DNA of 64,000 bases, from positions 3,637,001 through 3,701,000 of the forward strand of contig CM067312.1 of assembly GCA_034231615.1 (NCBI GenBank), written 5' to 3'. Positions 6,690 to 60,894 of this stretch are shown here, piece after piece. How positions within the stretch are numbered: the stretch's first letter is position 1; every line of letters starts with the position of its first letter. The position numbers and the translations under genes were made by a program. This stretch comes from Meghimatium bilineatum (Eukaryota; Mollusca; Gastropoda; Stylommatophora; Philomycidae). Under the pieces are notes generated by a model. The model was not told the DNA's origin and did not search any database. It was given only the letters and a program-made list of their open reading frames with translations.

Positions 6690-6950
6690 ACGCCCGTGTG
6701 TTGCCGGGGCCCGAAAGGGGTCAAAGAATAGCAACACTGTTTACCTTCCACGCATGTCGTAAAAGGCGACTAGGGAGGTTATGGGATGGAGTTGGCTGTC
6801 CCATTCATATAGGGTAAGTGACCCAAAGTCATGCTGAAGTCGGATGTGTCAGGCCGAAAGGCGCAGATATCGCAGCTATGCTGTAAACCATGACACAACG
6901 CATTCCGGACTATATCTCTGCAGGAGTTTAAGAACGAACGAAGAAGAAGA
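6690..6950 (+). mobile_element. SINE-A copy, nearly full length
   Basis: Starts GCCCGTGTGTTGCCGGGG, has the inner CATGTCGTAAAAGGCGACTA, then GGAGTTGGCTGTCCCATTC, GATATCGCAGCTATGCTG and CAGGAGTTTAAGAAC, and ends GAACGAACGAAGAAGAAGA. Full alignment with the flanked copy at 48189-48466 fixes the limits. A possible, imperfect target duplication is AGTGATAGCA (6681) against AGTGAAGAGCA (6950). Confidence 0.8.
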
Positions 6951-13020: not shown

Positions 13021-13345
13021 TTCTTCTTCTTCTTTCGTTCACTTGAAACATGTCTATATCTGTAATTCTGTCTCCTTAATAAAACTCACTGTCTTTTGTA
13101 GTTCATACAGTGTCCCATAGAGTTTTGATTCCAGTGTTGTTTCCTCTGGCCAATATGTCCGCCTCAGCGTTTCATGCTCAGAACACTCTTGAAGTATATG
13201 TTTGGCACTCTGTGCTGCCTGTCCACATGTACACATGGCTGTGTTGCCAATCTTGAACTTTGTATATATGTGACTTCGGAGTCGGTTGTGTCCTGTTCTG
13301 AGACGTAGAATTATAACTTGTTCTGGTCTGTTCATAATATGATAG
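13021..13345 (-). mobile_element. LINE family f, 5'-truncated copy
   Basis: The C-terminal peptide ILRLRTGHNRLRSH...CTCGQAAQSAKHILQEC matches the end of the 4.56-kb element at 41585-46142 (IFRLRTGHNRLRSH...CNCG). After the stop it ends GTTTCAAGTGAACGAAAGAA and a (GAA)n tail at 13021-13035. It lies in intron 1, antisense to the zinc-finger gene. Confidence 0.85.
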
Positions 13346-13620
13346 TCATCTTGTGTTGGTGTTTGTGGCTTTCTTATTGACTTGATCTGATGTCATCTAT
13401 CCATCTTCGACTGGGTCTTCACCTGTTTCTCTTTTCAGATGATCTTCTATTGATGGCTATCAATGGAATCCAATATGGTTCCATTCTGATAAGATGGCTG
13501 AACCATTTGATTTTTTGACTGTCTATGTATTCTTTGCATGATATTTTTTTCATCATATTTCTTATAGTGTCATTTTTAAAATTCCATCTCTTTTTGTTAT
13601 CCCCAGAGCTGTTGTCAGCT
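13346..13620 (-). mobile_element. LINE family c-like, C-terminal fragment
   Basis: Minus-strand peptide: NFKNDTIRNMMKKIS, YIDSQKIKWFSHLIRMEP, IPLIAINRRS, RPSRRWIDDI. It has the same layout as the family c copy at 34.2-34.8 kb (IEHQQIKWFGQLVRMNP, IPLRAYNK, GRPRKRWIDNI). One or more stops lie between the segments. Confidence 0.7.
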
Positions 13621-20120: not shown

Positions 20121-20159
20121 TACAGATATAAACATGTTTCAAGTGAACGAAAGAAGAAG
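20121..20159 (+). mobile_element. LINE family f 3' tip in the 3' untranslated region
   Basis: CAGATATAAACATGTTTCAAG followed by TGAACGAAAGAAGAAG matches the last 38 bases of the LINE-f copy ending at 13021. It is a very short 5'-truncated insertion in the probable 3' untranslated region. Confidence 0.75.
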
Positions 20160-31093: not shown

Positions 31094-31431
31094 TGAACAA
31101 ATAGTAAAGCAAAATGAATTAAACAGGTTACTAAAAACACTTACCTTGCCTATGAATAAAAATATATAAAAAAGTATATATAAAAAAACATACAATAAAA
31201 CTAAACTGGACAATTCTCCATGTATTGGCTCAAATAGAACCTTTTTCAAGAGACAAACAACAGTAAACACCACAATAATAAACAAAATAGATGACTTAGA
31301 TTTCATAAAGCCACGTATCCATGACGTAGGAATGGAAACGCATCTAGTAAAAGAGAAAATGTGTACATTCATTATAAACAAACTGGAAAGTGGGAAATTA
31401 GAGGCAATATAGATGTGGTTGGGGTGTTTAT
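31094..31431 (+). repeat. Inverted repeat, left arm
   Basis: About 338 bp matching the reverse complement of 32949-33288 at roughly 95 percent by eye. Shared blocks: AAGCAAAATGAATTAAACAG, AGACAAACAACAGTAAACAC, AATAGATGACTTAGATTT, GAAAGTGGGAAATTAGAGGC, GGTTGGGGTGTTTAT. The arm reads inward. Confidence 0.9.
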
Positions 31432-32703
31432 GATGATGTTCGTCCGTCGTGATTGACGATGACCAAAAACTCAACCATAATAATAATAACAATAAATAAT
31501 AAAATAATAAAGTTAATAGTGCGTTTTTAAATGACTAGCAAGTCCAATGCGCGCACAAAATGTTCTTTTACAGAATTGACAACAATAGAAGGTATCTGTG
31601 TGAGGTTGAGATGTTTTTTCTTTTCTACGTGTCCGCTTCTGTCTTGCAGTTTCTTGTCTGAATTCTTCTGCCGCTAGTGCTCCCGTTCTAATGCTGTAAC
31701 GCCATGCTGTTCTATCCTGAGCGAGGCTCTCCCAAGCGCCTACGTCAATGTTAAGATGTTTCAAGGATGACTTGAGCGTGTCTTTGAAACGCTTTTTCTG
31801 TCCACCAGCTTTTCGAAATCCTGCCTTGAGTTCTCCATAATATATTTGTTTTGGCAAACGCGAGTTCTCCATACGCACAAGATGGCCTGCCCAGCGTGCC
31901 TGCGCCTTCATAAGTATTGTGTGGATGCTTATTGAGGTTGATTTTTCCAAGACCTCGTAGTCTGGTACTTTGTCCCACCAATGGATGTTTAGTAATTTAC
32001 GTAGGCAGGTAAGATGGAAATGATTTAACTTTCTTGCATGTCTAGCATACACTGTCCACGTTTCGCAGGCGTATAGTAAGGTTGGTATAACAGCAGCATG
32101 ATATACTTGTAGTTTGGTGGTTGTTCTTATACCTCTTCTGTCCCATACATTTTTGCGTAATCTGCCAAATACAGCACTAGCTTTTGCCAGTCTATTGTTA
32201 ATTTCCACATCAATGTTGACATCGCGAGAGAGAGTGCTTTCAAGGTAAGTAAAATTGTCGACTACCTGCAGTTTTTCCTGATTGACGATGATGGAAGTAG
32301 CAGTATGTTGGCTATTTGATGTTGCTTGGTGCATGACTTCTGTTTTTTTGGTGTTAATAGTGAGACCAAAGTTGTTGCAGGCCTTTGAGAAACGGTCTAT
32401 GGTGCTCTGCATGTTTACGACAGAGTCAGCATACAATGCACAGTCGTCAGCATAAAGTAATTCTCTAACAGTACTAGATTTAGTTTTCGTGTTTGCTTTT
32501 AGACGACGTAAATTGAAAAGACCACCATCCGTTCTGTAATTGATCATTATGCCTGCTGTTTCATTACTATGGTGTGTTTCCGTAAACATGGCTGTAAATA
32601 ACAGGCTGAAAAGAGTAGGGGCCAGCACACATCCCTGCTTTACACCATTTGTGACAGGGAATGCAGGAGATACTCCTCCGTCGCAGATAACACTAGCCAT
32701 CAT
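31432..32703 (-). mobile_element. LINE family e, 396-codon open frame
   Basis: Open from 32703 to 31513: GVKQGCVLAPTLFSLLFTAM, the catalytic ELLYADDCALYAD, VDNFTYLESTLSRD, LLYACETWTVYARHAR, RWAGHLVRMENSRLPKQIYY, GGQKKRFKDTLKSSLKHLNI and a closing C2H2 finger CQFCKRTFCARIGLASHLKTH, then the stop. A 3' untranslated part of about 80 bp follows, with (AAT)-rich text and the end CGACGGACGAACATCATCAT against the left inverted arm. The endonuclease and fingers of the reverse transcriptase are missing, so the copy is 5'-truncated but otherwise unbroken. A related relic is at 54560-54860. Confidence 0.9.
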
Positions 32704-32910: not shown

Positions 32911-32948
32911 ATTTTCTTATATTTTTCTTATATTATTCTTGCATTCAT

Positions 32949-33288
32949 TATAAACACCCCAACCACATCTATATTGCCTCTAATTTCCCACTTTCCAGTT
33001 TGTTTATAATGAATGCACGCATTTTCTCTTTTACTAGATTCGTTTCCATTCCTGCGTCATGGAGACGTGGCTTTATAAAATCTAAGTCATCTATTTTGTT
33101 TATTATTGTGGTGTTTACTGTTGTTTGTCTCATGAAAAAGGTTCCATTTGAGCCGATACGTGGAGAATTGTCCTGTTTAGTTTTATTGTATATTTTTTTA
33201 TATATACTTTTTAATATATTTTTATTCATAGGCAAGGTAAGTGTTTTTAGTAACCTGTTTAATTCATTTTGCTTTATGATTTATTGAA
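32949..33288 (-). repeat. Inverted repeat, right arm
   Basis: Reverse complement of 31094-31431. On its minus strand it stays open for 88 codons: IGSNGTFFMRQTTVNTTIIN, KIDDLDFIKPRLHDAGMET, NLVKEKMRAFIINKLESGK and a stop. The left arm has the same frame with several breaks. The peptide looks protein-like (charged, regular) but I do not recognise it. Confidence 0.85.
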
Positions 33289-36763: not shown

Positions 36764-37329
36764 AAAAATAAATCTAATTGGAAATTATATATGGGGCCTG
36801 CTTATTCTATCTTCTTTTGCAATCAGTTTCCTATTCTCAGAAGTCTATATATGCCACCTCCATTAATTCAGTTGTCAATAGGAGGTCCTCACGGTTGCCT
36901 CACAGATTCATTTCCAGATCTGTCTCTTGGGGAACGGTTTTAGTCCTCAAGTTGCCAAAAAGTGCACATGTCTACATAATGTGTTCTGGAATCTGGGGAC
37001 CATTTTTACATGCATATTGGTCAGTTTGGACAACCTTTATTTTGTGGAGATGTACTTGTAGTCTACAGTGTGGAGCTAAAAATGGTAGTTTGCTGTGCTT
37101 TGTTCAGCTTTAGGATGGAGTCTTGTGGAAAGTTGCTGCCAGTTCTCTGACTCCATGTATGTTTATATTTTATTTTGGTGAGAGTTTTTGCTTTAGTCAG
37201 TGATATTCTGTGATGGATTATTCCTTTTTTTTGTACCTTCTATTGTCAGTCTGTCAGCTGTCTCATTTTCTGTAATTCTGCAGTGTGTAGGAATCCAGTT
37301 GATTTAAAAGTTCTAGAGTATTATTATAT
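36764..37329. other. Unassigned, LINE-like on the minus strand
   Basis: Text such as TCTCTGACTCCATGTATG and ACTGACAGATGTTC-like motifs suggest RNase H-type LINE sequence on the minus strand near 36860-37300 but I could not align a domain. Confidence 0.3.
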
Positions 37330-39785: not shown

Positions 39786-39946
39786 GTTCTTCTTCTTCAG
39801 TGTTTGTTCTCAAACTCCCGCTGGATTTCTCTGGTAGCAGGAAAATGTTACTAATAGATTTCCAATAGGATGTAGTCCAGAGAATGGAAATGGGCTGTGT
39901 CACTGTTTTATTTGCACCAATTACCCGACACATCTGTCTTCTGCAG
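39786..39946 (-). mobile_element. SINE-B copy with tail
   Basis: Reverse complement of SINE-B nearly end to end: starts AGATGTGTCGGGTAATTGG, then CAAATAAAACAGTGACACAG, TCTCTGGACTACATCCTATT, CCAGCGGGAGTTTGAGAAC, and tail CTGAAGAAGAAGAA. Confidence 0.8.
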
Positions 39947-40319
39947 ATTTTGTAATCTAAGAAGAGGAATCTTAGAAAACATTAAAATTTACAATATTCA
40001 AGATAAGAGTGTGGATTGACAGTGAGAGTTACAAAAATAAAACTAGAATTCAATGCATAAAAAGTGAGTACACTGGAACAGACAGAAGTTAGTGGAGATG
40101 TATGATTCAAGCGCAACACATGATGATGTTTATGCAAAGAGAAGATAATAAGCAGTGAAAACTTAAGAGTTATCATGCTGAAAATGCTTCTAATAAACAT
40201 CAAACATACAAAAATGTGATTGCATGAAACTACAAATAAAAGTACACAGCTACAGAATAAAATATTGCTTCCATTTATTGTCTTTTTATTTGCCTTTTCT
40301 TCTGCTTTTTCCTATCTAT
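39947..40319. other. Unassigned
   Basis: Nothing recognised. Confidence 0.35.
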
Positions 40320-41234: not shown

Positions 41235-41572
41235 TATATTGTAATAGTTAGTTTGTTCCTTTGGTGCCAAGGGCAGCAGATAGGGAAGATGTCATGTTTG
41301 TCTATTCCATGTGGCTCACTGCAAGTTGCTGTAATGCTTGGGTAGTGTTAATACCCACTGTCATTGCCTCGTTCTTGTTAATTCTTCACAATGTTGTTCT
41401 AGGTCTTCCACGTTTTCATTTTCCTGTCGCAGACCATGACAGAGCTTGATGGGTAAATATATTCTCGCTTGATCTAAGATCATGAACTAAACACTGTCAT
41501 CGTCTTCTTGTAATAATATTTGACACATATTCTTGTTTGGATATGTCTCTTATTGATTCATTTGTGACAAAG
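41235..41572 (-). mobile_element. LINE family i, 3' part of an interrupted copy
   Basis: Minus strand from 41572: AACTTTGTCACAAATGAATC, YVSNIITRRR-type text, LDQARIYLP, RQENENVEDLEQ, ending TTGGCACCAAAGGAACAAAC. Its 5' continuation is at 46155-46300; between them sits the LINE-f insertion. Confidence 0.75.
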
Positions 41573-41584
41573 TTTTTCCAATCT

Positions 41585-44500
41585 TCTTCTTCTTCATCGT
41601 TCTTCAGTCAGATATCAGGTTACAGCACCAATAGCTTGAATGAATTGTGTGATTCGCTTCAGGTCATCCATGGAACCCCTCAAGTCTGGAAGCAGTGCCG
41701 TCTCAGTAGGCCATATTTTCTCCCTCTCTTCTTGGTAGAGTTGACAGGTATGAAGAATGTGTTCTGCAGTCTATGGGCTCAGTCCACAGTTGCAAAGGTC
41801 TGTCTCACCAATCTTCAGCTTTCGGAACATGTGACTTCTCAGTCTGTTGTGACCAGTTCGTAGTCTGAAAATGATGGTTTGTTCCTTGCATGACATTTGG
41901 TGGTAGGGGTCATTTGGTTCTGCAGTTGGGTGCATTTGCTTCCACTTTTTCTTATATTCTGCTTTTAACATAGTCTTACTTTTATAGTACATATTATCAT
42001 TTTATATTTGTTCCAGTGATCCCCCTTTCCTTGCCAGGAGATCAGCTTTTTCATTTCCAGGTATGCCACAGTGACCTGGGATCCACTGCAGTACTGTTTC
42101 TTTGGTGGTACTGCTGAGGTGTAGTAAGCAGGCCGTAAGTTCATTCATGCTCGTGTTCTTTGGATCTTTCAATGCCTGCAATACTGACTTTGCATCCGTT
42201 AGAAATACTACATGTCTGTTGTGACTCGGTAAGCAATTCATGAGCATTTTGGCTGCCTCTATTATGGCTTCCATTTCTGCTTTGAAATTTGTGGAATGTT
42301 TGCCTGTGGGTATGGATTTCTCTATTTCTTTTCCATCTGGTGTTAATATATACATATTCCTGATCCTCCATCTAATACTGCCTCTTTCGCTGATCCATCT
42401 GTATATACATGTGTCCATATATCCTTTGGGTATGCTTTCTGTATGTGATTCTTAGTTGTCTCCTTTAGTACTTGTATAGTAGTTTCTGTTTTCGAAATAA
42501 TGCTTGGTATATTGTCCATAATTCTTGGGAAGTTTTTCCTGTCCCATGTTGGGTATGTGTTAAAGGTGTTTAGTGGTTTTAGGTTTTTTAGGTATGTATC
42601 TGTGAGTGATTTCTGGAGCTGTTTAGCGGAGTGTAAAAAGCTACCTCTTTTGAGTCGCTCTTTTGTAGGTCTGCTTAGTCTTTGGTTCATTTGATGACTC
42701 TCCAAACATTTGAACTTTGCATACAGTGTGAGGATTTTTTCATTTCTTCTTTCTTCCATTGATGGCAAACCTGTGCATGTTTCCATTTCTGTGATTGGGG
42801 TAGTATTCATACCTACTGTTATAATTCTGAGATTGCGGTTTTGTATCTTTGATATCTTTTGATTGTTACTCTTGGCTGCAGTCCCCCATGCTGACATTCC
42901 ATATTCCGAAGCTGGTATTACATAACCTGTATATGCTCTACTTAGGGTTTTTCCATTTGCACCACAATCTGTTCCAGCCAATTTTTTAAGGAGTGCTGTT
43001 CTCATTGCACCTTTTGTTTGGCACTTGTCTATGTGCTGTTTCCATGTAAGTCTTGGATCAAAAGTGACTCCAAGGTATGTAGGTGTCTCATCTTTTGGCA
43101 ATGTTTGACCATTTATGGTTAGTAGGATTTTTCTGTGGTTTGGTGGACATGCTGAAGATGGTATAGGTAGTTTTTTGGGCATTGATAGACATGGCCCATT
43201 GGTCTGTCCACTTGGCCAAATTGTCCATAGTTTCTTGCAACCTTATTTTTGTTGTGCCAACGCTCTCTTCACTGCACCATATCGCCAAATCGTCTGCATA
43301 CATTGCAGCATATACTTTACGCGAGAGAATTTTGTCAATGTCATTCATGAATATAAGGAATAGAGTGGGGGATAGAACACCTCCCTGTGGTACTCCATGC
43401 TTAAATAGTTTCTTTCTGCTGTGCTTCATTTCAAGCTTCACTGCTGCTTTTCAGTTGTGCCGGTATTATTTTATCCAGTAATACATGCACCCTGTCACTT
43501 TGTTTTGTTGTAGTTTAAGGAGGAGTCCATCTTTCCATACACAATCAAAGGCTTTTTCCATATCTACCCACACCACTGATGTCTGCTTTTTTTCCTGGAA
43601 AGCATCCTCTACTTCCTGGGCAATTAGTGTAATCTGGTCTTCAGTTGATCTACACTTTCTGAAGCCAGCTTGCTGATTTAGCAGGATTTTATTTTTTTCT
43701 AGGAACCACATCATTCTTTTGTTTACCAGGCGCTCCATTAATTTGCAAACACAGCTGGTCAGACTTATTGGGCGATAGCTGTCCACCTTATTTTTTGGCT
43801 TGCCTTTCTTGTGGATGGGTAACATTATGGCAGTTTTCCACACCTATGGCACTAGACCTCTATCGCAACAGTTGTTAAAGTTTTTTATTAATTTCTTTTT
43901 TGCTGATGGTCCGATGTGAATTAGCAGTTCATTTGGTATGTCATCAGGGCCAGGTGATTTCCTAAGTTTTAATACTGCTAGTTCTTCATTTAGTTCATTA
44001 ATCGTGAATGGAATATTCATGACATCTTGTTTATCTTTGCTGATCTCTTTTTCGATATTCCGTAGTTCTTTTCTTACTTCTCTTCTTCTATTTTCATCGA
44101 CTTTGTGGCAGGCAGTACTTTGGTAATGCTGTATAAAGTGATTTGCAGCCTTCTTTCCTGTGAGTACATCTCCACTATTCTCTATAGCTACTGGTGCTGT
44201 TTTGTTATCTTCGTTGTTGAGCATTTTTGTTATTTTCCATAGCTTTCTTCCCTCTTTGTCGAAGTTTAAATTTTCTGTTTTTTCATGCCAGCTTTTCCTT
44301 GTGTTTGTAATTGTCGTTTTTCTTAGTTTGGCTACAGCAGCTTTAAGTGATATGTTGTTTTCTGTGGATGGGCTTTTTTCTGCTGTGTCTCTGGCCTTTG
44401 ACACTTCTTTCTCCAACTCATCGAGTTCATCAGACCAGTACGGTTTGTAATTTTTCCTAGTACCTCTTGGTATGGTTTGCTTGGCTGCTTGAAGAAGTGC

Positions 44501-46142
44501 AGAAGCCAGGAGTTGGGCAGTTTTGTTCACGTTTTTAATCCTTGGATTTAAGGTTTTTGTGAATTTGTCTGTCAGGTCAGCATACTTACTCCAGTTTGCT
44601 TTCTTGAAGTTCCATCTGGGTGTGGTTGTAGGGCCAGCAGGGGTATGGTTAATGTCAATGGTGAGTTTGATGGGGAGTTGGTCACTTCCACCAAGCTGCT
44701 CCAGCACTTCCCTGTATGTTATTTTCGCTAAGGTGTCTGTTGCAAAGGCTAGGTCAGGGGTTGAGGTGGTGTGCCATCTTCTAGAGTAGAAAGTTGGGTG
44801 GTCTTCAGGTTCATTAAGCAGTTGAAGTTTCACCTCACACTGCCAGTCTTCCACTTCTTCTCCTCTAGTATCTTGTTCTGTATATCCCCAACTCTGTGAG
44901 TGGCTATTGAAGTCACCAATCACAAGACAGTTATCTTTTTCTGTGTTAATTGTGTGTAGAGATAGGCTCTTGTCTTGTGGACAGTAATAGTTATATACTG
45001 TGATCTCTTTAGTTGGAAGGGTTAGACAGGTTCCAATGATTTCAGCCTGTTCTTCTGTGTTTACTCGAATTTCAGAGGCAACGATATTGTTTTTCACAAG
45101 TATAAGAACTCCTCCTTTATGTCTTTTTTCTCTATCGTTCCGAAATGTTTGGTATCCTCAGATGTTGAATCTATTGTTGTTTGTGTACACACCCTCTGCA
45201 TTCCATGGCAATATTTTTAAGTGCTTATTTTTGTCTTTGTCTGTATCATGATCTATATGTGATTTTTGTGAACCAGTAGTTTTTTTCCTCTGATCTCTTT
45301 TCCTGGCTCCACAAATTGAGACAGAGGTACCACCAGTCGCTGAGGGTGGGCTCCTTCGAGGCTTAGAGCCCGGAATTTCATCCGCCTGACAGGATTCCAC
45401 AGATGAAGCACCAAAACGAATCATCTGTAACCTTTTATTTGACATGTGAAGTCATTGCGTGACACTGTGGTTTTCAGCCTTGGCTAGACTATTTTGTACC
45501 TTTCGGTCCAGTGTCTCCATCTTTCATCTTACTTTTGAGTCAGGATGTGTTTCCCTAGCCCTTATCCATCCAAGGATTGTCCACAGGACAGTGGAGGTTT
45601 CATTTTGGAGTTTTCCTTCTCCTAGACAGCGTGCCTAACAGGGTTAACGAGCACTATCTGCCCGGGGTTCTGAGGTAGAGTTCCCCTCTCCTAGGATAAT
45701 TTTTTTGTTGCCAGGTATTCATTATCCTCCTCTGTGGTTTATTTCTTGTAATCTAAGACACCTCTCGCTCAGGGAAGGTCATTTAAGAACATTGCTCTCT
45801 CTTGTTCTAATATCTATAATTCCCCATTTACCCTACCCAACCCTCTAACCCTACCTAACTACCCCCTCCCCTCCCCCCCTGGCACAATCCTGGAGTGGGG
45901 TCAGTGAGCCCACTCCAGCAACCTGAGCTTATAGCGGCTCATACTCGCTTTGATGCTGCCAGTCAATGGACATATGGGGTATTTCAGTGGGGATATCAGC
46001 GCTGCCTGATATCCCACCCCGTCCTCATGGTCAGCGACACCGTTTGGTCAGCGGCTGTTTATTTGCCCAGAGGGTTATTCACAGCTGGCCTCAAGAGGCT
46101 TTTCCACTAAAGCTCCTGGTAGGGGTCGGTATCCCCGCAGTG
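41585..46142 (-). mobile_element. LINE family f, 4.56 kb, both ends present
   Basis: Complete length element of the I group (endonuclease, reverse transcriptase, RNase H). The 12-bp target duplication TTTTTCCAATCT flanks it (41573-41584 and 46143-46154). Minus strand: 5' leader of about 700 bp starting CACTGCGGGGATACCGACCC with GC-rich text, then one long frame and a 3' end GAACGATGAAGAAGAAGA. No gag-like first frame is seen: only about 697 bp precede the ATG at 45445. C-rich, T-rich plus-strand frames over it are shadows. Confidence 0.95.
41615..45445 (-). pseudogene. LINE-f polyprotein frame (endonuclease, RT, RNase H)
   Basis: From ATG at 45445: a basic, Ser-rich start of about 75 residues, then endonuclease LKILPWNAEGV, GDFNSHSQSWG (near 44910) and SDQLPIKLTID; RT with SPGPDDIPNELL, YRPISLTS, QAGFRKCRSTEDQ, FDCVWKDGLL, GVPQGGVLSPTLF, MYADDLAIW (near 43290) and TYLGVTFDPRLTW; RNase H with HVYTDGSAKEA, NFKAEMEAIIEA, FLTDAKSVLQAL and IPGHCGIPGNEKAD; then RLRTGHNRLRSH and CNCG; end QFIQAIGAVT, stop at 41615. 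In-frame stops at 45158 (TGA) and 43844 (TAG) fit C-to-T changes of CGA and CAG; others are at 42002 and 41771, and the frame shifts near 43450, 43130, 42380 and 41690. About eight breaks, so a moderately young dead copy. Confidence 0.9.
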
Positions 46143-46154
46143 TTTTTCCAATCT

Positions 46155-46300
46155 ATGTTCAGGACTTTTTTGTAGACATTTATTCTCAAAATTATATAGC
46201 ATTTTTTCTATGGCTTGAGTGGATTTCCAGCTTTCATATCCATATGTTAGTACAGGGATCATGCAGTTGAAAATTTTGATCTTAATTGTTAGGTTAATTA
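46155..46300 (-). mobile_element. LINE family i, 5' part of the interrupted copy
   Basis: Minus strand: IKIFNCMIPVLTYGYESWKS, TQAIEKMLYNFENKCLQKS, then AACATAGATTGGAAAAA. Joined to 41572 downward it gives the same order as the copy at 9765-10235, so the two were one copy before LINE-f inserted. Confidence 0.8.
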
Positions 46301-46736
46301 CAATGTTAATAGAATAATTACAATGTTAACAACATCGTAATAGACATATGAAATATTGTATTCATGCTATGTTACTCAAAACACTATATGAACAAGCAGG
46401 AATCTATCTAAGTTACCATTTAACTCAATATGTGCTGGAACTGATGGAGTTTCTCCATGCAGATCAATCTGTTTAGCTTTGTTTCGTTTCGAAAGAATCT
46501 CCCATAAGCTTTTTGATTTCTTTCTGTGCACCATGTGAAAAAATTATGTGCAAAAGCAATGATCACATCTAGCAAAATAAAACAGAGAATGTGAATGGAA
46601 AACTATGACAACAGAATATACAAAATATGTAATGACAAAGTTACATCTAGTTTCAGCCTGCATGTGGCAAATATTGATAGAAAATGTGCAATTGACATAA
46701 GAAAAGAAATGACAGAATACACAAAATGTACAATAG
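46301..46736. other. Unassigned
   Basis: Nothing recognised. Confidence 0.35.
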
Positions 46737-47148
46737 GTGGTAAAAATTATACAAGGTGGTAAAGTTATACAAGGTCATAAAGTTATTCAAGGTGGTAAAA
46801 TTATACAAGGTGGTAAAATTATACAAGGTGGTAAAATTATACAAGGTGGTAAAATTATACCAGGTGTAAAAGTTATATTAACATGGTGGCAAAGTTATAT
46901 GAACATGGTGGTAAGTTACCCAAGGTGGTAAAGTTATACTAATAAGGTGGTAAAGTTTAACAGGGTATAACAAGCTGGTAAAGTTATATTAACGAGGTGG
47001 TAAAGTTATACTAACATAGTGATAAAGGTATGCAAGGTGGTAAAGTTATACAAATAAGGTGGTAAAATTTAACAAGGTATAACAAAGTGGTAAAGTTATA
47101 CTAACAAGATGATAAAGTTATACTAACATGGTGGTAAAGTTATACTAA
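46737..47148. repeat. Minisatellite, 18-bp core, variable spacing
   Basis: Core GGTGGTAAAGTTATACAA; in the left part regular 18-bp units, in the right part longer units with ACTAACATGGTGG or TTTAACAAGGTATAACAA. Confidence 0.9.
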
Positions 47149-47205
47149 ATTGACAGAATGTCAACAGTTGTGACAAAATACAGAATTATAAAGAGAAATA
47201 ATAAA

Positions 47206-47318
47206 CTAAATCTCCTGACATAGTTAACTCTCCTGACATAGTTAAATCTCCTGACATAGTTAAATCTCCTGATATAGTTAAATCTCCTGACAAAGTTAAA
47301 TCTCCAGACATAGTTATT
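47206..47318. repeat. 18-bp minisatellite, 6 copies
   Basis: Unit CTCCTGACATAGTTAAAT, 18 bp. A (GTATT)-like run follows at 47318-47335. Confidence 0.9.
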
Positions 47319-47335
47319 GTATTGTATTGTATTAT

Positions 47336-47984
47336 TCTGAGTCCACTCAGAATATTTTCTAAAGTGTGAATCATGGTCTCTCTCGAGACAGCGCAGGATT
47401 GGTGTAAAGATCAAAACATCCCGTAAATAGAAACAGAATAGACATCCGAAGAGACTGAAAAATCTGAATTGAACTGGAACTGTTGGACTCTAAATTCTGA
47501 TGGATTTATTGAGACGGGGATCGAAGTACCAACGTACTTGTCCGGTGTTCTTTGATGATAACTAGCCTGTAGTCATATCTATTCAACTCATAATTCAATC
47601 AAATAAATTATTTGCAAAAGCACTTTAGATTACTAGTAAAAGTGTGGCAGAAATAATAGGACAACTGTGTTGTGGGGTTCTCATCATCATCATGTGTTTT
47701 GTCGAGTGGCATAGGCAATCATTGATCTCCACAAGATTCTATCTGCAGTAATTGGTATTATTTCTACTGCTGACTTTTTAACATGACAAACTATCCAGTA
47801 TCTTCTCTCTTTACTGTTCTGTCTCTTTCTTTAGGGAGAGGGCGGGATGGGGATCCTGAGCCCCTTTGAGATTATGAATTTGCTGATCTCTGTTACGTAG
47901 TTCTGTGTCACAAAATTCCATTGAAGTAGGATGTTACAAGGATGTCTACCATGTAATGAAAATGTCACTTTGTTCTAGACCTGT
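47336..47984. other. Unassigned
   Basis: A (CAT)n tract near 47680-47692 may mark a LINE 3' tail on the minus strand. No gene. Confidence 0.35.
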
Positions 47985-48177
47985 TATCCTTGGAGTTTAG
48001 CATATTTATCCTTAGATTTTAGCATATTTATCTTTGGAGTTTAACATTGTTTAGCATATTTATCCTTGGAGTTTAGCATTGGAGTTAAGCAAATTTATCC
48101 TTTGTCGTTTGGCATATTTATCCTTGGAGTTTATCATATTTATTCTTGGAGTTTAGCATATTTATCCCTGGAGTTTA
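47985..48177. repeat. Minisatellite, about 22-bp unit
   Basis: Unit CATATTTATCCTTGGAGTTT AG with skipped or merged copies (AACATTG, GTCGTTTGG). Confidence 0.85.
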
Positions 48178-48188
48178 GCATATTTAAT

Positions 48189-48466
48189 GCCCATGTGTTG
48201 CCATGGTCTAAAAGGGGAGCAAAGAATAGCAACAGTATTTACAGTCCATGCATGTGTAAGAGCTGACTAAGGAAGTTATATGGTGGAGTTGGCTGTCCCA
48301 TTCCATATAGGTTCAAAGTGAACCAAAATTTATGGTAAAGTCAGATATGTGAGGCAATAAAGCTGCAGATATCGCAGCTAAGCTGTAAACCATGATACAA
48401 CTCATTCTGTTCTCCGGACTACATCTGGCAAATCTGCATGACTTTAAGAACAATGTGGAGAAGAAG
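48189..48466 (+). mobile_element. SINE-A copy with target duplication
   Basis: Starts GCCCATGTGTTGCCATGG, includes CCATGCATGTGTAAGAGC, GGAGTTGGCTGTCCCATTCC, GCAGATATCGCAGCTAAGCT, TTCTCCGGACTACATC, and ends GTGGAGAAGAAG. Flanked by the 11-bp GCATATTTAAT (48178-48188 and 48466-48476), the left copy being the edge of the minisatellite. These flanks set the true ends of SINE-A. Confidence 0.9.
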
Positions 48467-48489
48467 CATATTTAATTTATTATCGTCAT

Positions 48490-48620
48490 TCATTCTCAAA
48501 CTCCTGCTGGCTAGCAGAATGTAGTTCAGAGAATGGAATGTGTTACAGTTTGCAGATGTAATAAAATGTCTGTACATTTCAGCCCAATATATCTAACTTG
48601 TATCTAACATCTAATGCTAA
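48490..48620 (-). mobile_element. SINE 3' part
   Basis: Reverse complement: ATTCTCAAACTCCTGCTGG, AGCAGAATGTAGTTCAGAGA, then diverged SINE-A-like text TTTCAGCCCAATATATC. Confidence 0.6.
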
Positions 48621-57606: not shown

Positions 57607-57994
57607 CACTCAAATCTCATTATATCAGCTAAAGATAGATGTGGCAGGCTATTGGCGCAAATACAACGTTGACACAAAGCATTTCCATTTTCTGAACTAC
57701 ATCTTGTTGGAAATCTATTATGACTATTGTCCTGCTACAAGAGAAATCCAGTGGGAGTTTGAGAATGAATGCTGAAGAAGAAATCTCATTATAACAACTT
57801 GGTCAGAATCTACAAAATATGTACATAACAATAAAATTATAACAACTTGGTCTGGATCTACAAAACATAATAATAAAAATTTGCTATATACAGTACAAAC
57901 AATAAAGGTTATAACTGGGAATTTTAAAAAGTGTTACTATAGGCCCTATAGGGAAATTTGTTATAATAGAATGCACTATAGAGGGATTACACTG
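57607..57994. mobile_element. pogo-like MITE carrying a SINE
   Basis: TA (57605-57606), CACTCAAATCTCATTATA left end; right end TATAGAGGGATTACACTG then TA (57995-57996). Outside the SINE at 57625-57780 the body matches 30771-30945 (TAACAACTTGGTC, TTTGCTATATACAGTAC, GGGAAATTTGTTATAATAG). A short inner segment (ATTATAACAACTTGGTC) is repeated once. Confidence 0.85.
57625..57780 (+). mobile_element. SINE-B, full length with target duplication
   Basis: 156 bp: AGATGTGGCAGGCTATTGG, GCGCAAATACAACG, CTGAACTACATCTTGTTGG, ATCCAGTGGGAGTTTGAG, tail GAATGAATGCTGAAGAAG. Flanked by the exact 13-bp AAATCTCATTATA (57612-57624 and 57781-57793), so these are its true ends. No clear tRNA-type promoter boxes. Confidence 0.92.
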
Positions 57995-59640: not shown

Positions 59641-59907
59641 AAGCCATACTCATGGAAAAAATGTCATCTCAGAAAATGATATTTTTCTCCAAGTGATTAA
59701 GCAGCACAAACTCTGTCACACGAACCCATTCTCCTCTATCGGCTTACAATATTTTAAAAAACCAGGTTTACACATATGTCAATGAAAAAAAAACAACTTA
59801 CAAATCTTCAGGAAAAAGGTGTAAGAAGTCAACATCTTTGCTAGAAGGAATATCTTCATTCAATTTTCTCTGAACCAAGTATTGTTCCTGTCGGAAGACG
59901 AAAACAT

Positions 59908-60417
59908 GCAAATGTATTAACCTACTAGTGTAATATCTAACAAATGTATTAACCTACTAGTGTAATATCTAACAAATGTATTAACCTACTAGTGTAATAT
60001 CTAACAAATGTATTAACCTACTAGTGTAATATCTAACAAATGTATTAACCCACTAGTGTAATATCTAACAAATGTATTAACCTACTAGTGTAATATCTAA
60101 CAAATGTATTAACCTACTAGTGTAATATCTAACAAATGTATTAACCTACTAGTGTAATATCTAACAAATGTATTAACCTACTAGTGTAATATCTAACAAA
60201 TGTATTAACCTACTAGTGTAATATCTAACAAATGTATTAACCTACTAGTGTAATATCTAACAAATGTATTAACCTACTAGTGTAATATCTAACAAATGTA
60301 TTAACCTACTAGTGTAATATCTAACAAATGTATTAACCTACTAGTGTAATATCTAACAAATGTATTAACCTACTAGTGTAATATCTAACAAATGTATTAA
60401 CCTACTAGTGTAATATC
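59908..60417. repeat. 32-bp minisatellite, 16 copies
   Basis: Unit CAAATGTATTAACCTACTAG TGTAATATCTAA. Almost identical; one unit has CCCACTAG. Confidence 0.97.
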
Positions 60418-60894
60418 AGTAAATGAATAATGTAATGTAGCAGCATCAAGGATTTATTATTAAAGAAAAATCATAATACAAAAAAATGATTCGCTCAGAT
60501 GACACTTACCTCACAACCTGTTCAACACATCTTCTGTTTTTGGCCACACTACATCCCTAAAATATGGTTTGCTCAGATGACACTTACCTCACAATCTGTT
60601 CAATATATTTTCTGTCTTCGACCACAGTACATCCTTAAAATATGATGTGATTTCAGTCAAGACTTTTTGTATATTTTCAAATCACTACCAATATGGACTG
60701 GTTGATCAACACTCAGACAACAATGCACACACACACAAAGAATGTCTTGAAAACCAAGGACATTTAACATTACTTGCAGAATGTCTCAATACTATACAGA
60801 CCAATTAGGCAAGTAAGTGACATAAGAGTGAATGTGTTTCAAATCATGTTTGCTGCATTATGATTTTTGTCTTTAGTGTAATATCTTACATCAC
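60418..60894. other. Unassigned, with a diverged duplication
   Basis: CAGATGACACTTACCTCACA and its flanks occur twice (60497-60560 and 60572-60640). (CA)n at 60727-60740. TTTAGTGTAATATCTTACAT just before the next array resembles a partial unit of the array at 59908. Confidence 0.5.

Follow-up and report, generated by a model that had tools for sequence, protein, structure and literature searches.

A stretch of 64,000 nucleotides (nt) from the gastropod Meghimatium bilineatum (GenBank assembly GCA_034231615.1, contig CM067312.1, positions 3,637,001 to 3,701,000), referred to below as the window, contains a long interspersed element (LINE), LINE-f, together with copies of two families of short interspersed elements (SINEs), SINE-A and SINE-B, where the label SINE is given by structure only. 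All end in GAA repeats, and a short terminal motif directly before the repeat is shared by these SINEs, a third family (SINE-C) and a group of related LINEs. The original prediction was that both SINEs are copied by the reverse transcriptase of LINE-f.

LINE-f and the SINE families

The copies of LINE-f, SINE-A and SINE-B in the window are as follows (lengths in base pairs, bp, where duplications are given).

41584..46141, minus strand: LINE-f copy of 4558 nt with endonuclease, reverse transcriptase and RNase H domains, ending in TGA-TATCTGACTGAAGAACGAT-(GAA)n
41572..41583, minus strand: 3' copy of the LINE-f target-site duplication, GATTGGAAAAAC, 12 bp
46142..46153, minus strand: 5' copy of the LINE-f target-site duplication, GATTGGAAAAAC, 12 bp
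6690..6950, plus strand: SINE-A copy, end GAACGAACGAAGAAGAAG at 6932, from the subfamily without the GTTCTCCG arm
48189..48465, plus strand: SINE-A-like copy (by eye) with an 11-bp duplication, GCATATTTAAT, at 48178-48188 and 48466-48476 (by eye)
57625..57780, plus strand: SINE-B copy, end GAATGAATGCTGAAGAAG at 57763, with a 13-bp duplication, AAATCTCATTATA
39790..39948, minus strand: second SINE-B copy, 81% to 57624-57782, inverted

All four tails named in the original prediction stand in the window: GAACGATGAAGAAGAAGA in LINE-f (41602-41585, minus strand), GAACGAAAGAAGAAGAAG in the element near 13 kb (from 13040, minus strand), and those of the SINE-A and SINE-B copies. Target duplications had also been proposed, and are present for LINE-f (12 bp), SINE-B (13 bp) and the SINE at 48189-48465 (11 bp), while for the SINE-A copy at 6.7 kb the sole candidate is 8 bp long (shuffle p 0.05) and lies ~13 nt ahead of the conserved start.

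Three fragments of LINE-f match PF14529 (2.6e-17), PF00078 (1.4e-18) and PF00075 (4.5e-11). The apurinic-type endonuclease, reverse transcriptase and RNase H of the I-group are thus all found in LINE-f, the only element covered by the domain search. LINE-f is assigned to the I-group by this domain content and its tandem-repeat tail rather than by a tree.

Family ends were read from 20 SINE-A, 30 SINE-B and 29 further LINE-f loci. All of these loci were chosen as best matches to the window copies, which biases age estimates. Median divergence from the consensus in these best-match sets is 0.3% for LINE-f (last 606 nt), 5% for SINE-A and 10% for SINE-B. Two loci with identical flanks (L014 and L015) are represented by L015 in the consensus, divergence and target-position sets, and the maximum divergence in the consensus set, 0.584, is probably due to a locus in the wrong orientation (L013). 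The window SINE-A and SINE-B copies are atypical, the family ends being GAGAACGAACGCAGAAG and GAGAATGAACGCTGAAG, respectively. With their repeats, these ends read ...CATCCTGCTAATCTGCAGGAGTTTGAGAACGAACGCA(GAA)n in SINE-A and ...GATCCAGTGGGAGTTTGAGAATGAACGCT(GAA)n in SINE-B; that of SINE-C, in locus L017, is ...TATATGAGAGCGAACGCA(GAA)n, and the end common to all three families is TGAGARYGAACGCW(GAA)n. The LINE-f family end is ...TGA-TATCTGACTGAAGAACGAT(GAA)n, which keeps GAACG and the repeat of the SINE tail motif.

SINE-A and SINE-B are short, dispersed and flanked by target-site duplications, and their relatedness spans the 3' bodies, beyond the tail. One SINE-B locus (L055) has SINE-A-like sequence upstream. 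A search of Rfam with the window SINE-A copy gave no convincing match (one at E 4.2, far under the gathering score), and ARAGORN found no tRNA in 14 loci; a tRNA, 5S or 7SL head was not found in these searches, though a diverged one may be present. SINE-B might have been the 3' part of some longer LINE, but its 30 loci have no common flank extension by eye, and there is none directly upstream among the 40 longest flank matches listed. The region upstream of the SINE-C end is common to four loci (L017:1-800, L077, L029 and L025) for hundreds of bases, with 81% identity over 653 to L077. SINE-C may be no SINE but the terminal part of some longer non-autonomous element.

Related LINEs and the shared terminal motif

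The element near 13 kb had been counted as a LINE-f copy. It belongs to a separate family, LINE-g, which has near-identical copies of its own and whose protein is 46% identical to that of LINE-f across 98 C-terminal residues. A search with the LINE-g C-terminus gave 73949 candidate places, of which the best 150 were scored; all of these show at least 96% identity, and a number have open frames near 1305 amino acids. Five LINE families (f, g, h, i and k) have related C-termini containing a W-P pair, and in LINE-f, LINE-g and LINE-i the stop codon lies 33 codons past the W of this codon pair. The distance from stop codon to repeat is 19 nt in LINE-f, 21 nt in LINE-g, 16 nt in LINE-i and either 19 or 27 nt in LINE-k, which has two possible stop codons and two decayed local copies. 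The ends of all five are variants of one motif, which is followed by GAA-like units.

LINE-f: TGAAGAACGAT, before GAA-like units
LINE-g: GTGAACGAAA, before GAA-like units
LINE-h: GAACGCA, before GAA-like units
LINE-i: TGAGAGATGATCGCA, before GAA-like units
LINE-k: GAAACCGATCCCA (locus L009) and GAAACTGATTGCA (window), before GAA-like units

In the genome, TGGCC at LINE spacing before CGCAGAAGAAGAAG occurs at 2681 places, compared with 2 for the reversed pattern. Among the 100 places listed, 90 have letters, and these consist of 59 LINE-h (WPEDTDLRQKLWGSRSDLEKTVDFVL), 4 LINE-k, 1 LINE-i, 17 SINE-C, 8 SINE-A-like (one of which is SINE-B by eye) and 1 other. Among the 59 LINE-h rows listed, the median difference from the most frequent sequence is 2.9% over 70 nt. 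The LINE-h coding end followed by GAACGCAGAAGAAG is present at 1782 places (control 0). LINE-i was first met in the flanks of L016 and L055, and the pattern of its stop codon and 3' untranslated region (UTR) was drawn from these two copies, with CGCA as in the GCA of L055 and in the SINEs. At up to two mismatches this pattern has 167 places (control 0), one of which falls inside the LINE-i row of the TGGCC-CGCAGAAGAAGAAG search. Two places are exact (AACC-TGA-CTGAGAGATGATCGCAGAAG), 26 have one mismatch and the rest have two (72 further rows shown); the third row listed is AACCTGACTGAGAGATTATCGCTGAAG.

The prediction that the tails match beyond the GAA repeat is supported, with a motif of 7-15 nt shared before it. 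Directly before the repeat, LINE-f agrees with SINE-A, SINE-B and SINE-C at 5/7, 6/7 and 5/7 bases (p 0.014, 0.001 and 0.015). In gapped alignments anchored at the end and run backwards from the GAA repeat, with 4000 shuffled versions of the LINE UTR for comparison, LINE-f gives p values of 0.03, 0.006 and 0.03 against the same three families, and LINE-g gives about 0.04 for each. The two exact LINE-i rows give 0.0008, 0.0010 and 0.0003, and the match spans the whole LINE-i UTR. LINE-k (L009) reaches 0.0010 with SINE-C. Taken over the whole set of related LINEs, the tail signal is clearer than for LINE-f alone. An unanchored alignment of the last 60 nt, the comparison originally proposed, is not significant for LINE-f with either SINE-A (p=0.64) or SINE-B (p=0.95), and only 1 of 12 LINE-SINE pairs falls at p<0.05 (LINE-f and SINE-C, 0.012), where the matching stretch lies well away from the end. 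Because this comparison is nearly all null, the shared part is short and terminal.

Three further fragments of these LINEs lie in the window.

13021..13385, minus strand: 5'-truncated LINE-g fragment, ending in TAG-ACATGTTTCAAGTGAACGAAA-(GAA)n, with a 9-bp candidate duplication, GACATCAGA, on both sides
20121..20159, plus strand: insertion of the last 39 nt only of LINE-g, with flanks TATTTCTGG and TATTTGTGG, 8/9 bases alike
36811..37070, minus strand: decayed 3' fragment of LINE-k, ending in ATAGACTTCTGAGAATAGGAAACTGATTGCA-AAAGAAG

The 39-nt insertion at 20121-20159, an extreme 5' truncation flanked by a 9-bp duplication with one mismatch, is directly downstream of a zinc-finger-like coding stretch. 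Outside this group, a LINE with many 1026-amino-acid open frames prevails among the 150 scored RVT_1 matches in the genome. The single copy of it that was read (L081), from a family presumably RTE-like, ends in GAT units with no GAA tail within 4.5 kb, so GAA tails are not a feature of every LINE in this genome. Several LINE families, including this one and LINE-g, look recently active.

Hairpins, insertions and target sites

Folding of the 3' ends gives a strong hairpin in SINE-A (z -4.07) and SINE-B (z -4.60) and none in SINE-C (z 0.18). A subfamily of SINE-A without the GTTCTCCG arm, comprising 6/20 loci by eye (L001, L003, L006, L008, L012 and L013), has a weaker fold (z -1.92) and has spread too. 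An automatic split by arm also placed L009, L010 and L018 in this subfamily, despite mutated arms being present. The outer stem pair is mostly G-C in A-like copies (11/16) and A-T in B-like copies (20/22), and further SINE tails at 927-984 and 48487-48544 carry the G-C and A-T versions. This pair is not used as an argument because both sites are CpG in SINE-A and because 6/20 SINE-A loci lack the arm.

Target-site duplications of 8-16 bp overall pass a shuffle test in 9/15 truncated LINE-f copies (11-14 bp), 16/19 SINE-A and 20/30 SINE-B, with the wrongly oriented L013 scored as a miss in the SINE-A tally. T is found at target position -2 in 6/9 LINE-f, 12/16 SINE-A and 13/20 SINE-B sites, and A at +1 in 9/9, 13/16 and 15/20, although this A may belong to the tail. 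The original prediction called for a comparison of target preferences, and here the elements diverge: T at -3 occurs in 8/9 LINE-f sites and 8/36 SINE sites (Fisher p=0.0004), a position picked post hoc from ten.

Two loci carry insertions of essentially the SINE tail alone, ~39 nt (L085) and ~33 nt (L093), with short duplications by eye. Such insertions, like that of LINE-g at 20121-20159, fit the remnants expected of abortive target-primed reverse transcription from the tail, and the target-site duplications and the tail-only insertions of 33-39 nt together are consistent with target-primed reverse transcription. An argument that the tail-only SINE insertions start upstream of the motif was discarded as circular, as the search pattern required it. 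A further locus (L082) may hold another tail-only insertion, within a tandem array. On the minus strand of L009, near 780-830, the end of another LINE (...ANRHGP stop, TGATGATGATGAT) passes straight into CGCA(GAA)n, as if by a tail-only insertion or a mixed tail.

Other repeats in the window include long tandem arrays with 35-bp and 32-bp units, from 60753 and at 59781-60545, and a 341-nt inverted repeat (31096-31436 and 32945-33285), the arms of which are 95% complementary and 1508 nt apart.

A probable LINE partner for the SINEs

Since the tail is shared beyond GAA and the insertions resemble target-primed reverse transcription, it is likely that the SINEs use a LINE reverse transcriptase, and this part of the original prediction stands. 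Its choice of LINE-f as the partner is not supported: LINE-i and LINE-h match better, an outcome that the prediction itself had named as refuting it. The reading preferred here, which is given a little better than an even chance, is that SINE-A, SINE-B and SINE-C are non-autonomous retroposons and that the enzymes copying them come from a single I-group LINE clade, which bears RNase H and (GAA)n tails and is represented by LINE-f, LINE-g, LINE-h, LINE-i and LINE-k. Reverse transcription would begin at or beside two adjoining features, the GAA repeat at the 3' end and, directly ahead of it, a linear motif of ~15 nt (TGAGARYGAWCGCW); in LINE-i this motif takes up almost the whole 3' UTR. The donor would most likely be an older member of the clade near LINE-i or LINE-h, not LINE-f. 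The sequences themselves show the common terminal motif, the kinship of the LINE C-termini, the target-site duplications and the tail-only insertions, from which enzyme use in trans, the donor and the exact recognition element are inferred. The SINE/LINE link is probably real and the LINE first named probably wrong, with LINE-i or LINE-h as the best candidates so far.

Several observations weigh against this reading. The stretch shared by LINEs and SINEs is short, at 7-15 nt plus the repeat, and none of the LINEs sampled contains the part of the SINEs that precedes the motif (GGAGTTT and beyond). The SINE hairpin is likewise absent from the LINE ends folded, with z values of -0.72 in LINE-f, -0.82 in LINE-g, -0.57 in LINE-k and 1.26 in LINE-i (the last two being decayed single copies). 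The LINE-h coding end followed by CGAACGCAGAAGAAG occurs at only 6 places, and followed by the longer SINE tail GAGAACGAACGCAGAAG at none; taken with the 1782 places above, most LINE-h copies therefore share GAACGCA and the repeat with SINE-A and no base further. The letters of LINE-i come from two decayed local copies and three genome rows, two of which were chosen by fit to the pattern, and as just 2/167 places are exact the true family consensus differs somewhat from that pattern. Against SINE-A, SINE-B and SINE-C the third listed LINE-i row gives anchored p values of 0.015, 0.0010 and 0.013, and the decayed copy L016 gives 0.015, 0.003 and 0.12, while LINE-k ranges from 0.001 to 0.37 by copy and SINE. 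Single p values of 0.01-0.05 carry little weight, since five related LINE families were compared with three related SINEs.

LINE-f itself as the partner of SINE-A and SINE-B has only a slim chance of being correct. It is abundant and young, and its GAACG lies at the same distance from the repeat as in the SINEs, with the matches of 5/7 (p 0.014) and 6/7 (p 0.001) given above. However, LINE-i and LINE-h match the SINEs better, LINE-f is far less diverged from its consensus than either SINE (best-match sets), and its preference at position -3 (post hoc) is not that of the SINEs; tail match, age and target position thus all set this candidate back. A LINE as yet unseen could be the true partner, with a much longer 3' match and perhaps a shared hairpin, as in a classical stringent pair. 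This is unlikely. In its favour, the three SINE families resemble one another far more than any LINE seen, and the hairpins of SINE-A and SINE-B are strong (z -4.1 and -4.6). TGGCC followed after 85-115 nt by GAGAACGAACG is, however, found at 387 places (reversed control 7) with no LINE coding end by eye among the rows listed. At a further 14 places with the SINE-A tail and non-SINE bases at six positions just upstream, mostly SINE variants, there is no recognisable LINE end by eye, under a filter that a single LINE family would pass with ~18% chance and with part of the LINE diversity sampled.

It is rather improbable that the enzyme needs the GAA repeat alone, as L1 needs poly-A, with the motif inherited among related LINEs and its likeness in the SINEs due to chance or slippage. 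The repeat is the sole feature common to all of these elements, the motif match is short with several weak anchored p values, and the SINE-A loci without half of the hairpin (6/20) have spread nonetheless. Set against this, five LINE families and three SINE families all carry the motif directly ahead of the repeat, and anchored p values go down to 0.0003. That the GAA tails reflect microsatellite growth or an assembly artefact has a negligible chance: the number of GAA units does differ between copies, but in many the duplications start directly after the repeat, and the non-repeat motif is conserved. A shared stem-loop of the UnaL2/UnaSINE type, for which a test had been suggested, is not supported, and since the LINE ends tested lack the hairpin and arm-less SINE-A has spread, such a structure is not the link between SINE and LINE for these ends. 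Within the preferred reading of an I-group clade as the source of the enzymes, a more specific proposal is that the clade recognises a very short linear motif (~15 nt, TGAGARYGAWCGCW) beside GAA repeats with no stem-loop, which would let three or more SINE families make use of it while carrying hardly any LINE-derived sequence. Such a mode, between stringent and relaxed, is put forward only tentatively.

The Drosophila I element has RNase H, and the Anolis LINE Vingi-2_Acar presumably belongs to a group near the I elements. According to the review of Ohshima (2013; PMC3747384), TAA repeats form the end of the I element, which is likewise an I-clade LINE with a short tandem repeat in place of poly-A; the elements described here differ in having GAA and a 3' UTR of just 16-21 nt before the repeat in LINE-f, LINE-g and LINE-i. 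The closest parallel in that review's table of pairs is the Gecko SINE with MosquI/I-74_AAe of Aedes aegypti, also a SINE with the tail of an I-clade LINE in a protostome, and the title of the original Gecko paper, as given in the reference list, mentions 3' tandem repeats and slippage. Compared with Gecko, known here by its table row, the host is another, the repeats are GAA, and the motif of one LINE group occurs in three SINE families. SINE2-1_Acar and Vingi-2_Acar form a further pair, compared by table row alone. UnaSINE1/UnaL2 and other stringent pairs similarly share a 3' end that includes the terminal repeat (PMC3747384). The stem-loop common in stringent-type ends contrasts with the ~7-15 nt plus repeat shared here and with the lack of the SINE hairpin in the LINE ends tested. 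In mammalian L1/Alu a SINE is also copied in trans by a LINE, as would be the case here, but L1 requires poly-A repeats only (PMC3747384), whereas in the present elements the motif before the repeat is shared too. PMC10294476 is a survey of bivalves, and a literature search on GAA repeats, or on squid, octopus or gastropod SINEs, gave nothing closer among the papers listed. On these comparisons, the best reading may be that of a further SINE/LINE tail pair of known type, comparable to Gecko/MosquI.

SINE/LINE tail pairs reveal which enzyme copies which parasite, and in the table of PMC3747384 those of the I clade are rare, with one I-clade row (Gecko, Aedes) and one Vingi row. Where a LINE group has a 3' UTR of 16-21 nt, the recognition element is confined to a few bases, and the many near-identical copies of recent LINE families make an assay feasible.

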